Source: a virus. Taken from it: a stretch of DNA of 64,000 nt. Every line of letters starts with the position of its first letter. Positions within the stretch are counted from its first letter, which is position 1. The notes beneath the pieces are model-generated. The model saw only the letters and a program-made list of their open reading frames with translations. It was not told the DNA's origin and searched no databases. Both the position numbers and the translations under genes were made by a program. Shown here in pieces: positions 1,427 to 53,425 of this stretch. The stretch spans positions 1-64,000 of the IMG/VR virus record IMGVR_UViG_3300028581_001382, one strand, 5' to 3'.

Positions 1427-1789
1427 TTATTGAGTATAATTCTCGAGAAACTGATTTAAATCCCCATAAAGATTAGCTAAAAATGCTTCTTTTGATCCGT
1501 AGAATTTAATGCTGGGATTTTTTCTATCTATATTAAGATAATATGGATCTTGTAATCGTTGATCCAATTGTACTAATAGTTTGGGACGTATTTGTTCAGG
1601 TCGAATATCAAAATTATAATGCTCGATATTCATTCGTTGCATTGCAATATAACCATGAGCACTGAGACGCATACCTGCACCTTGACGAGAATTTCGCCAC
1701 CATGTTTGCATGGCCCAATCTAATCCTGGACGCTGAGATTCAGGAAACTGCCTGATCAGTGCTTCAGTAATGGCTTGTTTATTTCGCAT
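1427..1789 (-). CDS. Conserved hypothetical phage protein, 120 aa
   Basis: A soluble protein with two Trp-rich stretches (GLDWAMQTWWRNSRQG) and a C-terminal region, SIKFYGSKEAFLANLYGDL. It has the feel of a conserved T4-like phage core protein, but I cannot place it in a named family. Its ATG overlaps the 3' end of the upstream 98-aa gene by 11 nt, so the two are likely co-translated. The first ATG is taken as start. Confidence 0.6.
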   Translation of the reverse strand: MRNKQAITEALIRQFPESQRPGLDWAMQTWWRNSRQGAGMRLSAHGYIAMQRMNIEHYNFDIRPEQIRPKLLVQLDQRLQDPYYLNIDRKNPSIKFYGSKEAFLANLYGDLNQFLENYTQ

Positions 1790-2075
1790 TGGGGTATATT
1801 TTATCCCCTTGTTTGAGCAATACTACAGAAAACTTATCAGTGCGAAACTGAATGTTTAGTTTTCTAGCCAAATTGATTGCATGTCCTTTATTTGAAAAAG
1901 ATACTTTTTTATACTTGGGACCTGGATACTGAGTGAGTAAATTTGAAGTCTTGAGATTGATTGGTCGATTATCAAAGAACACTGCCCAGATACCTTCGCT
2001 GGCCAATACCTGTTCAGTTTTATAGGTCTGCTTGTTGGTGTTCTCTATTAACACTGATGGTTTGGGGCGGCTCAT
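1779..2075 (-). CDS. Conserved hypothetical phage protein, 98 aa
   Basis: A basic protein with the stretch ASEGIWAVFFDNRPINLKTS and a Lys-rich middle (GPKYKKVSFSNKGHAINLAR). The family is unknown. Its AGGAGT ribosome binding site is buried in the 3' arm of a 12-bp perfect hairpin that also holds a late-promoter box in its loop. This suggests that translation is off on early read-through mRNA and on when transcription starts at the late promoter. Confidence 0.6.
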   Translation of the reverse strand: MSRPKPSVLIENTNKQTYKTEQVLASEGIWAVFFDNRPINLKTSNLLTQYPGPKYKKVSFSNKGHAINLARKLNIQFRTDKFSVVLLKQGDKIYPNAK

Positions 2076-2082
2076 CCATTAT

Positions 2083-2116
2083 ACTCCTACATTTATTTAT
2101 GCAAAAATGTAGGAGT
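2083..2116 (-). promoter_or_regulatory. RBS-sequestering hairpin with a late promoter in its loop
   Basis: Perfect inverted repeat: arms ACTCCTACATTT (2083-2094) and AAATGTAGGAGT (2105-2116) with a 10-nt loop. On the minus strand the downstream arm contains AGGAGT, the ribosome binding site of the gene starting at 2075. CATAAATA (2101-2094), a T4-type late box, spans the loop and the arm edge. A transcript started from it would lack the upstream arm. The same logic is known for T4 genes e, soc and I-TevI. Confidence 0.65.
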
Positions 2117-2118
2117 AT

Positions 2119-2328
2119 TTAGAAGTCTTTCCCGCCCAGTTCCACAGTAATAACTTGTTCTTTTTGTGCAGTCAACAGCTGAGTTTGCAGTTCTGTTATG
2201 GCCAACAACATCTTGGTTATGTCAGCATGCAAGTCCTTGGCATCTCGAATTGGCATCATGAATTCACGTTGTCCACGTGCTTCATGTGCCTTTACTGAAT
2301 CAATGAATCGATTAATGTGTATACTCAT
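2119..2328 (-). CDS. Hypothetical protein, 69 aa
   Basis: A small protein with a probable C-terminal coiled coil (DITKMLLAITELQTQLLTAQ, residues 36-55) after a charged N-terminus. Its ATG overlaps the stop of the upstream methyltransferase gene by 4 nt. It is followed by the 12-bp hairpin at 2083-2116, which may also act as a transcript end or processing site. No function is inferred. Confidence 0.65.
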   Translation of the reverse strand: MSIHINRFIDSVKAHEARGQREFMMPIRDAKDLHADITKMLLAITELQTQLLTAQKEQVITVELGGKDF

Positions 2329-2869: not shown

Positions 2870-3250
2870 TCAGGAGAACTTGTTAAAAGCACCCTTCTTT
2901 TTCAAGAATGGTTTCAAGTTTGGTGGTTCCCATCCTTGTGGTTTGAGTACTTTACCATCTTCACGCTTGCGCACCTTGCCTGTTCCTTTATCGATCTTGG
3001 CAAAGTTAGTAGCCATAACTTCTTTCCAAGCACCTTCGGCATCCCAACCTGCGCTGTGTATAGCACCAATTGTAACAACTAGGATATCAATAAGTGCATC
3101 TAGCGTTTCGATATCGTCGTCTGCATCTTTGAGCTCTTGGTATTCCTCATCGATTAGATCCATATACATATCGAACTGTGCTTGATCGCCTGTGACATTT
3201 TGGTCACAGGCTTTCATAAATTTTTCTTGGTCACGGAAGAGGTTTGACAT
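2870..3250 (-). CDS. MazG/HisE-like nucleotide pyrophosphohydrolase, 126 aa
   Basis: All-alpha NTP pyrophosphatase fold. The metal-binding pattern is visible as LIDEEYQELKDADDD (an E-E-x-x-E type motif, about residues 28-42) followed by LDALIDILVV, which supplies the downstream D. The C-terminal tail NFAKIDKGTGKVRKREDGKV is characteristic of phage members. Such enzymes hydrolyse nucleoside triphosphates or phosphoribosyl-ATP and are common in T4-like marine phages, where effects on nucleotide pools or ppGpp have been proposed. I chose the ATG at 3250 because the family sequence begins there; a longer frame upstream is a shadow of the neighbouring gene. Confidence 0.75.
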   Translation of the reverse strand: MSNLFRDQEKFMKACDQNVTGDQAQFDMYMDLIDEEYQELKDADDDIETLDALIDILVVTIGAIHSAGWDAEGAWKEVMATNFAKIDKGTGKVRKREDGKVLKPQGWEPPNLKPFLKKKGAFNKFS

Positions 3251-43555: not shown

Positions 43556-43563
43556 TATTTATC
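43556..43563 (-). promoter_or_regulatory. Late promoter box 4 nt before the giant gene
   Basis: GATAAATA on the minus strand ends four bases before the ATG at 43551. No Shine-Dalgarno sequence lies between, so the transcript would begin at or beside the start codon. Confidence 0.6.
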
Positions 43564-50624: not shown

Positions 50625-51191
50625 TTATCTTTCTGGGAATGGTGGGATCACAGGAGCTGGTCTACCACCCCATCCTGTGACAACTTCTGCGTTAACAGGT
50701 GCCATGGTTCCAAATCCTGTATTTCCGCCAAAGCTTGTTGCCGAAGGTGCACCTCCAAAGCCACTTCCTCCGCCCAGGGACGGTGAGCCCCAGGACTGAT
50801 TAACGGGTGTTGATGTACCAAACGCACCAGGGACGGACGGTCTCACAGACCCAGGCGGCATGTATGTTGTTCCAACATTTGGTGGTAAGGCAATTCCTCC
50901 ATTGTTAGCTCCTCCGAGTTTTTCTTGTGTGCGACCGTAGGCTGCAATACCCAACACAGCGCCCATTGCTATGTGATATAGCCCAGCACCTTGTAGAGTC
51001 AACGGTTGCCATTGTGTTTGTACACTGCCATGAAATAAACTCTGTGTCAAACTCCAAAGAACTGGTGCTAACACAAAATCAAATATGCAGGTAATCATAT
51101 AGGTCCATCCCATCATCGGACGCCATTTTGAATTCATCCAGTCTTCTTTGGCTTTTTCGCTAGAACTTGTTTGATGATTTTTTTTTGTCAT
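50625..51191 (-). CDS. Holin-like membrane protein with Gly-rich tail, 188 aa
   Basis: N-terminal NSKWRPMMGWTYMITCIFDF (residues 20-39) with the W-x-R-P start of the three-helix holin family, then LAPVLWSLTQSL and LTLQGAGLYHIAMGAVLGIA as further membrane segments. The C-terminal half is an unusual Gly/Ser/Pro-rich tail (SWGSPSLGGGSGFGGAPSAT). Directly upstream of the endolysin in gene order of the cassette, so it likely forms the membrane holes for lysis. Ribosome binding site GGGAG. Confidence 0.72.
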   Translation of the reverse strand: MTKKNHQTSSSEKAKEDWMNSKWRPMMGWTYMITCIFDFVLAPVLWSLTQSLFHGSVQTQWQPLTLQGAGLYHIAMGAVLGIAAYGRTQEKLGGANNGGIALPPNVGTTYMPPGSVRPSVPGAFGTSTPVNQSWGSPSLGGGSGFGGAPSATSFGGNTGFGTMAPVNAEVVTGWGGRPAPVIPPFPER

Positions 51192-51192
51192 T

Positions 51193-51813
51193 TTATACTC
51201 CCATCACATGTAATGCATGTTCATAATGTCGGATACGATCTTCTAATCCAATATAACCGCCATTGATGGCTCTGGTAAGCCCTTTTATATCTCCTGCGTC
51301 GGCAAATCTATTCAAGTTGTTGGTTTCCCAAAACCAGCAAGCTGATTGCGCAGCACCTTCAAATGTGGCCAAATATTCACTGGCTTCTTCTACTGGAATC
51401 TCCAAACTGCCAGCAAAGAATGTGTAGTTGTCACGACCGGTAAGCTGTATCAACCCACGACCACAGAACCGATATCCATCGCCGCTGGCTTCATCGCCGT
51501 TGCCCATGCGATTAGCATAAACTCTGTTGGCAATTTTTTCAGGCCGATTTGCATAAGCTGCTGCAATAGTATCATCAGTGAAATATTTGGCAAATGTTTT
51601 TCTTAGACTAGCAGCACGATAGTTAAGATTTTCTTTAACAAAAACAAAATTTCCTGACTCATGAGCGCATTGTGCAATAAAGGCCGACACTCTGGCAGGT
51701 GTGTTGATATCATAATCGGGCAACAGTTGATCAATAGCTTGGTACCAATGATCAATGTAGGGATTTTTAACCATTTGTTTAAGTTGACTTAGTGACAATA
51801 TTGAGTTGCTCAT
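51193..51813 (-). CDS. GH19 (chitinase-fold) endolysin, 206 aa
   Basis: GH19 pattern: ARVSAFIAQCAHESGNFVFV (catalytic Glu in HESG, about residues 42-61), YANRMGNGDEASGDGYRFCG and RGLIQLTGRDNYTFFAG (the substrate groove motif). Phage GH19 enzymes cleave peptidoglycan. Cys residues and an NLNRFADAGDIKGLTRAING stretch complete the fold. It lies between holin and o-spanin, which agrees with endolysin function. There is no signal peptide, so release needs the holin. Confidence 0.88.
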   Translation of the reverse strand: MSNSILSLSQLKQMVKNPYIDHWYQAIDQLLPDYDINTPARVSAFIAQCAHESGNFVFVKENLNYRAASLRKTFAKYFTDDTIAAAYANRPEKIANRVYANRMGNGDEASGDGYRFCGRGLIQLTGRDNYTFFAGSLEIPVEEASEYLATFEGAAQSACWFWETNNLNRFADAGDIKGLTRAINGGYIGLEDRIRHYEHALHVMGV

Positions 51814-52073: not shown

Positions 52074-52543
52074 TTGTTTTTCTCAACGGGTTGATTTAGT
52101 GCTGCCGCATTGTGCGTGTCAATAACGACTGAAGGTATAGGACAAATTTCCACAAAGCGAATCACTTCTTGATTGCGAACCACTTCTCTGTCTATGTAAC
52201 TAACAATGTTCTGTCCTTTTTCTCGTATGACTTTGGTGTTGTTTACCAGTTTGGTTATTACTTGTGTATTGGTTTCTGCACTGAGTTTTTCTGCTGCTGC
52301 TACTTTTGCTTCTGCTTCACGCACACGTTCTCGCCAGGCCATTTCTGTTGAATATCCGCCTTTGAAATAAACACCCGTGGTCAACAGCACTATGCCCAGG
52401 ACCTGCAGAGGTATTCTATAAGTGTTTACAAACGGAATAAAACGCACAAAAAAGCCGGCCACTGTGGTCAGTGCGCCGGCTATTAGAATGGTGTTGACGA
52501 TCCATGAAATGAATGCGTCAGGAAGAAGATGTAAGATCCACAT
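52070..52543 (-). CDS. Inner-membrane spanin-like protein, 157 aa
   Basis: Start taken at ATG 52543 (MWILHLLPDAFISWIVNTIL). Two N-terminal membrane segments (about 10-30 and 42-60, LQVLGIVLLTTGVYF) are followed by a periplasmic coiled coil (REAEAKVAAAEKLSAETNTQ) and a Pro-rich end. This fits the i-spanin architecture, though most i-spanins have one helix. Next to the o-spanin with a 4-nt overlap. A late box lies 5 nt before this ATG with no ribosome binding site; the longer frame from 52561 would start inside the box. Confidence 0.7.
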   Translation of the reverse strand: MWILHLLPDAFISWIVNTILIAGALTTVAGFFVRFIPFVNTYRIPLQVLGIVLLTTGVYFKGGYSTEMAWRERVREAEAKVAAAEKLSAETNTQVITKLVNNTKVIREKGQNIVSYIDREVVRNQEVIRFVEICPIPSVVIDTHNAAALNQPVEKNK

Positions 52544-52548
52544 GCAGA

Positions 52549-52556
52549 TATTTATC
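52549..52556 (-). promoter_or_regulatory. Late promoter box before the lysis cassette
   Basis: GATAAATA on the minus strand ending 5 nt before the ATG at 52543, set within a small palindrome (GCAGATA ... TATCTGC). It should drive spanins, endolysin and holin as a late leaderless message. Confidence 0.62.
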
Positions 52557-52567
52557 TGCAAATGGTA

Positions 52568-53425
52568 TTATAATCCCATGCTTTTTCTTATGTTTGTAGC
52601 TGATATACTTGTGATAGATTCATCAAACTTTTCTTCTTCTATTGTATATCCTACCCCACGACCGTAGCCAATGTGAGTGATATTAGGAACTACTAATATT
52701 TCGTATTGCCCTTGATACAATGTATCAAGATCTCGTTTAATAGCTTGTTTGACCTGGTCGATAGCAAATGGATTACTGCCTTGCCAGCCCTGGCAGTCGC
52801 GAATCATGATGCATACTTGTCCTGTTCGTTGTATCAATCTATCAAACAATGCACGATGCCCGGCATGCCACGGTTGCCAGCGACCCAACATCTGTATAGT
52901 TTCTTTCTTGAAATCAAACACAGGTCTACGGCGATTGTCTAGTATGTGTTGCCCAATGAATTCTACCCATTTTTCAGCGTTTTGTTCTGTGATTCTGAAA
53001 TCATATACATTCGGAGGAATAAAGGCTCGGTTAGTATCATCATATCTACCAGCATCAATTGTGTCCATCCAGATGGTCCAATCTGCTTTAAAATTGTTTC
53101 TCATTTCGGGCAATGGTGCAACAAAGTCACAGATAACAAAGTCGCCCGAACATTTAACAGCGAACTCAAACATTCTTAAACTTTGTCGAATTCTACCTTC
53201 TCTGCTGAAATCCCAATCATTAAATCGTTTGCGTATTTCATCTGCGTTAAACCAGTCTACTTTTACATTGTAAAAATCAGGTCCAGGAATACCCTCATAA
53301 TCTAACACACGCCCTGGAGATATTTTCATAACATCTCCGTGTTGTTCTAGATATCTTTTTAATTTTTCGGCAAAGTATGTTTTGCCTGCACCTGGAAGAC
53401 CCATTATCAATATTTTTTGTGTCAT
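52568..53425 (-). CDS. APS-kinase-like/nucleotidyltransferase fusion, 285 aa
   Basis: N-terminal P-loop kinase: ILIMGLPGAGKTYFAEKLKR with Walker A GLPGAGKT, then DWFNADEIRKRFNDWDFSRE, which resembles APS kinase (DGDNVRHGLNRDLGFS). The C-terminal domain starts LGRWQPWHAGHRALFDRLIQ, with the H-x-G-H of nucleotidyltransferases, and ends with SISATNIRKSMGL. Similar two-domain proteins occur in marine T4-like phages. It may make APS/PAPS or a nucleotide-activated product. A sulfotransferase-like gene is at 25895-26470. ATGA overlap with the short reading frame upstream. Confidence 0.68.
   Translation of the reverse strand: MTQKILIMGLPGAGKTYFAEKLKRYLEQHGDVMKISPGRVLDYEGIPGPDFYNVKVDWFNADEIRKRFNDWDFSREGRIRQSLRMFEFAVKCSGDFVICDFVAPLPEMRNNFKADWTIWMDTIDAGRYDDTNRAFIPPNVYDFRITEQNAEKWVEFIGQHILDNRRRPVFDFKKETIQMLGRWQPWHAGHRALFDRLIQRTGQVCIMIRDCQGWQGSNPFAIDQVKQAIKRDLDTLYQGQYEILVVPNITHIGYGRGVGYTIEEEKFDESITSISATNIRKSMGL

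Follow-up and report, generated by a model that had tools for sequence, protein, structure and literature searches.

A putative cis-acting RNA timing switch ahead of an uncharacterised 98-aa gene in a large T4-like phage

The window analysed here, a 64,000-nucleotide stretch of viral DNA, belongs to a 153,873-bp IMG/VR record that is itself a fragment, and it carries on its minus strand a gene for a 98-aa protein (1779..2075, ATG at 2075-2073) that is the presumed target of the switch proposed below. The gene overlaps by 11 nt a 120-aa ORF (1427..1789, minus strand), which is also the neighbour of the homologous gene in PA5oct and probably shares a late RNA with the 98-aa gene. On the upstream side lies a 69-aa ORF (2119..2328, minus strand), the presumed source of read-through RNA, and its stop codon (2119-2121) abuts the 5' arm of a hairpin. 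The upstream genes are co-directional and of replication type, comprising an RNase H-like exonuclease, a MazG-like protein, a methyltransferase and the 69-aa ORF, and a scan of the minus strand from 4762 to the hairpin gave no terminator-like site, and so read-through into the 98-aa gene is plausible from the gene arrangement.

The original prediction took the 98-aa gene to be uncharacterised, which agrees with the lack of any match to its protein in Pfam, PHROG or PDB sequence searches; the AlphaFold2 model is poor (pLDDT 56) and its Foldseek matches are meaningless. The gene is nonetheless widespread: IMG/VR has at least 599 relatives of it, and among jumbo phages homologues occur in Phosso, Atu_ph07, PA5oct and kin, and SCTP-2. 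The PA5oct homologue is without a mass-spectrometry note, though some of its neighbours have one.

The hairpin occupies the 43-nt gap between the two minus-strand genes, where a perfect stem of 12 bp had been claimed at 2083-2116. The stem is indeed perfect but it is longer, with 14 bp and the whole hairpin at 2081-2118, and the 12 bp are its inner part. In the minus-strand RNA the order is ATACTCCTACATTT-TTGCATAAAT-AAATGTAGGAGTAT-AATGG-ATG, that is a 5' arm (2105..2118) lying upstream of the late promoter box and present in read-through RNA only, a 10-nt loop as given by the inverted-repeat search (2095..2104), and a 3' arm (2081..2094) that contains the ribosome binding site. The arms are 100% complementary over the 14 bp, and this is the longest perfect short-range inverted repeat of the window. 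The hairpin RNA folds at −19.7 kcal/mol (z = −4.6), and none of 200 shuffles was equally good. A nucleotide search of a phage collection with the hairpin region gave no match, and an Rfam search of 1700-2500 found no curated RNA family at E≤1. A multi-copy repeat element was considered and rejected, the only exact matches being the two arms themselves.

Two further parts of the original prediction, that the stem hides the AGGAGT of the gene starting at 2075 and that a late box lies in the loop region, are both borne out. The Shine-Dalgarno sequence (SD) AGGAGT (2083..2088, minus strand) lies within the 3' arm. The T4-type late promoter box CATAAATA (2094..2101, minus strand) has seven of its eight bases in the loop, its last A being the first base of the 3' arm, and it has the right T4 spacing. 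The ATAAATA core occurs in the window without enrichment (12 found, 12.4 expected), and so the assignment of CATAAATA rests on its position and on the matching TAAATA in the leaders of relatives. By T4 geometry late transcription would start at 2088 (minus strand), the sixth nucleotide after the box, and a start there would remove the 5' arm from the RNA.

Folding models predict a large difference between the two kinds of transcript. In read-through RNA, with a 5' end at least 43 nt upstream of the ATG, opening the region from the SD through the AUG costs 18-20 kcal/mol and the probability that the SD is unpaired is 0.00. With the 5' end at 2088 the opening cost is approximately 3-3.6 kcal/mol, and with 5' ends from −13 to −19 it is about 3-7 kcal/mol, the SD being unpaired with a probability of 0.4-0.8 for these predicted late starts. 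The predicted late leader is only about 13 nt long with the SD at its very 5' end, and in the model it is not fully open (3-7 kcal/mol). The expectation that RNA from the late promoter is without the upstream arm and is freed thereby holds at the level of sequence.

The relatives of the 98-aa gene carry much of the argument. From 302 loci of the family 163 distinct leaders were drawn, and TAAATA lies within 90 nt of the start in 161 of them, mostly at 15-20 nt (the SD class) or at 5-8 nt; the box is nearly invariant and the arms are not. In the two exceptions (L117 and L157) an endonuclease-like ORF (L117:998-1502, L157:889-1500) separates the 98-aa gene from the box and its hairpin, that of L117 matching NUMOD3 and a PHROG homing endonuclease, and in both the inserted ORF appears to have captured the leader switch of the 98-aa gene. 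When only the part of the leader upstream of the box was shuffled, native leaders concealed the start far better than the shuffled ones did (41 clusters, median percentile 0.075, KS p = 4e-10), and 17 of the 41 clusters fell at or below percentile 0.05. Stems differ between lineages and shift register, examples being CTCCTAC/GTAGGAG, CCTATAT/ATATAGG, CGTAGTTT/AAACTACG, AGTTTTTAGCAT/ATGCTAGGAGTT and AAACTCCTAGTTTATT/AATAAACTAGGAGTTT, while coverage of the SD or the start codon is kept across the re-registered stems.

RNAalifold gave no single consensus fold among the relatives' leaders because the register of the stem shifts between lineages, and an arm-swap test, the strongest of the tests for pairing, was used instead. 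Across 37 lineages the native occlusion sum was 280 kcal/mol versus 190±12.5 kcal/mol for permuted arms, and none of 20,000 permutations reached the native value; since lineage clusters share ancestry this last figure is no strict probability, but the effect is large. In a 49-sequence alignment the covariation count score was 0.140 versus 0.087±0.009 for shuffled sequences (0 of 500 shuffles), although sliding the stem by +2 gave 0.122, near the value of the native register. The stem is in this sense maintained by compensatory change, though its register shifts. About a quarter of lineages show little SD occlusion (L066, L257, L293 and L155 for example).

Occlusion of this kind is no general property of late genes in these phages. 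Fifteen other genes with TAAATA and an SD at the same loci, a set that leaves out alternative starts of the 98-aa gene, gave a median of 0.49 and no tendency to occlusion. A shuffle survey of 75 SD-class sites in four genomes gave a median p of 0.50, with the 98-aa gene of the window among the three sites at the lowest possible p and having the highest opening energy; the other two are a tail-fibre-like gene (G000:72079) and its probable counterpart (G004:130094). The shuffle survey was substituted for a helix-score survey with reversed-hexamer controls, which was uninformative as the control hexamers overlap real boxes. PHROG profiles detect gp55-type late sigma genes in the complete relatives G001, G003, G004 and G005 and in four named phages. 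Searches with T4 gp55 (phmmer) and with PHROG profiles found no gp55-type gene in the fragmentary 154-kb record to which the window belongs. A TATAAATA-type box precedes late genes in four genomes, with TAAATA-to-ATG spacings that peak at 4-7 nt and, broadly, at about 16-25 nt.

An inverted repeat would also follow if the conserved feature were a DNA operator, a dyad ahead of the box (consensus about AAACTRCNYAGTTT) to which a dimeric regulator of the late promoter binds, and the consensus TTTTAAAACTACnTAGTTTTTG upstream of the box in alignment A2 fits such a site, as does persistence of the element in some leaderless relatives with weak start-region pairing, such as L111, L112 and L155. However arm swapping breaks the match, which means that every upstream arm fits the downstream arm of its own leader. 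The stems often contain G-U pairs, as expected for RNA, and pairing with GGAGTTTA behind the SD accounts for the left half of the element as well, and so an operator is an improbable explanation of the repeat. As an observation in its own right, AAACTRCNYAGTTT (A2 columns 9-25) is a gene-specific conserved element upstream of the box with a rough dyad, kept where start pairing is weak, and it could be more than a hairpin arm.

That the hairpin instead terminates the upstream transcript or stabilises its 3' end might be thought from its place directly after the stop codon of the ORF at 2119-2328, and from the terminator-like hairpins that PA5oct/MIJ3 and Phosso have in the equivalent gap. Yet neither strand has a U tract after the stem, the terminator scan omits the hairpin and its 3' arm serves as the ribosome binding site, all of which makes this reading very unlikely. 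The homologues in PA5oct/MIJ3 and Phosso resemble the present gene in having a TAAATA box upstream, with PA5oct also having the same neighbour order, but they differ in that a strong terminator-like hairpin stands before the box and there is no hairpin over the ribosome binding site. This suggests that expression by read-through has to be prevented in all of these phages and that they avoid it in more than one way. In PA5oct and Phosso these hairpins (L084 and L082) lie shortly before position 3001, in the interval from the upstream gene to the box.

A stem of 14 bp is short for RNase III, and stems in a new register still cover the SD or start codon; the two points together leave little room for the hairpin being an RNA processing or stability element, such as an RNase cleavage site, in place of a block to initiation. 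Processing of T4 late and middle mRNAs by several RNases (PMC3014915) is what such a proposal can draw on, and its probability is very small. A chance palindrome beside a chance late box is hardly credible and is already disfavoured by the relatives, for while ATAAATA occurs in the window at its expected frequency, the z of −4.6, the box in 161 of 163 leaders and the 0 of 20,000 arm swaps all speak against it.

Overall it is probable that a cis-acting RNA timing switch controls the 98-aa gene in this large T4-like phage of uncultured bacteria, the support in the sequences being the stem, the position of the box, the predicted loss of occlusion and the co-variation of the arms in relatives. Early and middle RNAs from the co-directional upstream genes would read through into the 98-aa gene, and in such RNA the 14-bp stem would form and cover AGGAGT, preventing synthesis of the 98-aa protein. 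At late times a gp55-type sigma would bring RNA polymerase to CATAAATA in the loop, and the late RNA, starting at around 2088 if the T4 geometry applies, would be without the 5' arm and be translated.

The precedents that the original prediction invoked in T4 genes e, soc and I-TevI are real, and the literature on the device extends to 49, segB and Aeh1 mobE (PMC3014915, PMC2988022). In T4 gene e the SD is hidden in the longer early RNA, with a reported 100-fold repression, and transcripts from the late promoters, which lie upstream of the SD, are without the 5' part (PMC3014915). The hidden SD and internal late promoter are alike here, in a different gene and phage clade, but unlike in gene e the loop of a perfect 14-bp stem is taken up by a single box, and a leader of about 13 nt is predicted. 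For I-TevI, I-TevII, I-TevIII, segB and Aeh1 mobE the ribosome binding site is concealed when the RNA began at an early or middle promoter further upstream, and the late promoter is placed so that late RNA is without the hairpin (PMC2988022). The 98-aa protein, unlike the products of I-TevI, segB and mobE, is no endonuclease, and in L117 and L157 an endonuclease ORF is inserted behind its leader. T4 soc is listed as a late gene with an inhibitory structure at its start region (PMC3014915), although soc encodes the small outer capsid protein, to which the 98-aa protein is unrelated in sequence. The sequences support the proposed switch well, and it would join the e, soc and I-TevI kind.

Descriptions of the T4 switch concern a handful of genes from T4 and phages close to it; here the same logic appears before an abundant and uncharacterised gene of uncultured T4-like phages. 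The switch would single out the 98-aa gene as one that is probably harmful when expressed early, and it predicts the timing class of the gene. The hundreds of natural variants in which both arms change together are a ready set for testing the timing of late proteins.

The short TAAATA spacing raises a related matter. In four genomes the distance from TAAATA to ATG is exactly 4 nt in 34 cases and exactly 5 nt in 40, versus about 3 at most other short distances. T4 geometry puts the late start of these genes at or beside the A of the ATG, and so their late RNA would be leaderless; leaderless late mRNAs are therefore probable in this phage clade, judging by the spacing. The N4/N5 peak is not clearly seen in the named jumbo relatives, and a literature search of partial coverage found no description of leaderless late mRNAs in T4-like phages. 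If real, the leaderless version is another way of tying translation to the late start site, and with a hidden start codon it would add a new form of the T4 device. It is possible, though somewhat doubtful, that the clade silences selected late genes early by interchangeable means, these being a hairpin over the SD whose loop holds the box, a leaderless late mRNA with its start codon at the transcription start and hairpin-hidden in read-through RNA, and a terminator-like hairpin before the box; a lysis cassette at 52543 of the window would belong to the set, as would the 98-aa gene and the tail-fibre gene (G000:72079, G004:130094).

Starts of the TAAATA-N4/N5-ATG form in the G000 genome include window positions 43556, 45246 and 54712. 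At 52540-52569 of the window (minus strand) the predicted leaderless start (52543) of a gene for a 157-aa membrane protein lies in a stem with 11 of 12 pairs (CCATTTGCAGAT/ATCTGCATGTGG) and the late box in its loop, for which T4 gene e may be compared. The gene adjoins a holin-like gene (50625-51191) and an endolysin gene (51193-51813) in a lysis cassette, and the stem is kept in L383-L385 and partly in L387 but lost in L386. Outside the window, at L087:8059-8110 (G000:72079), a second SD-hiding hairpin with TAAATA in its loop precedes the 779-aa tail-fibre-like gene; it is conserved in L317-L320, and a different stem is present in L321 and at G004:130094. A third gene family (MADEQQ..., PHROG 1574) shows moderate start-site occlusion around a late box, at window 44491 (minus strand), G001:138033 and G003:178790.
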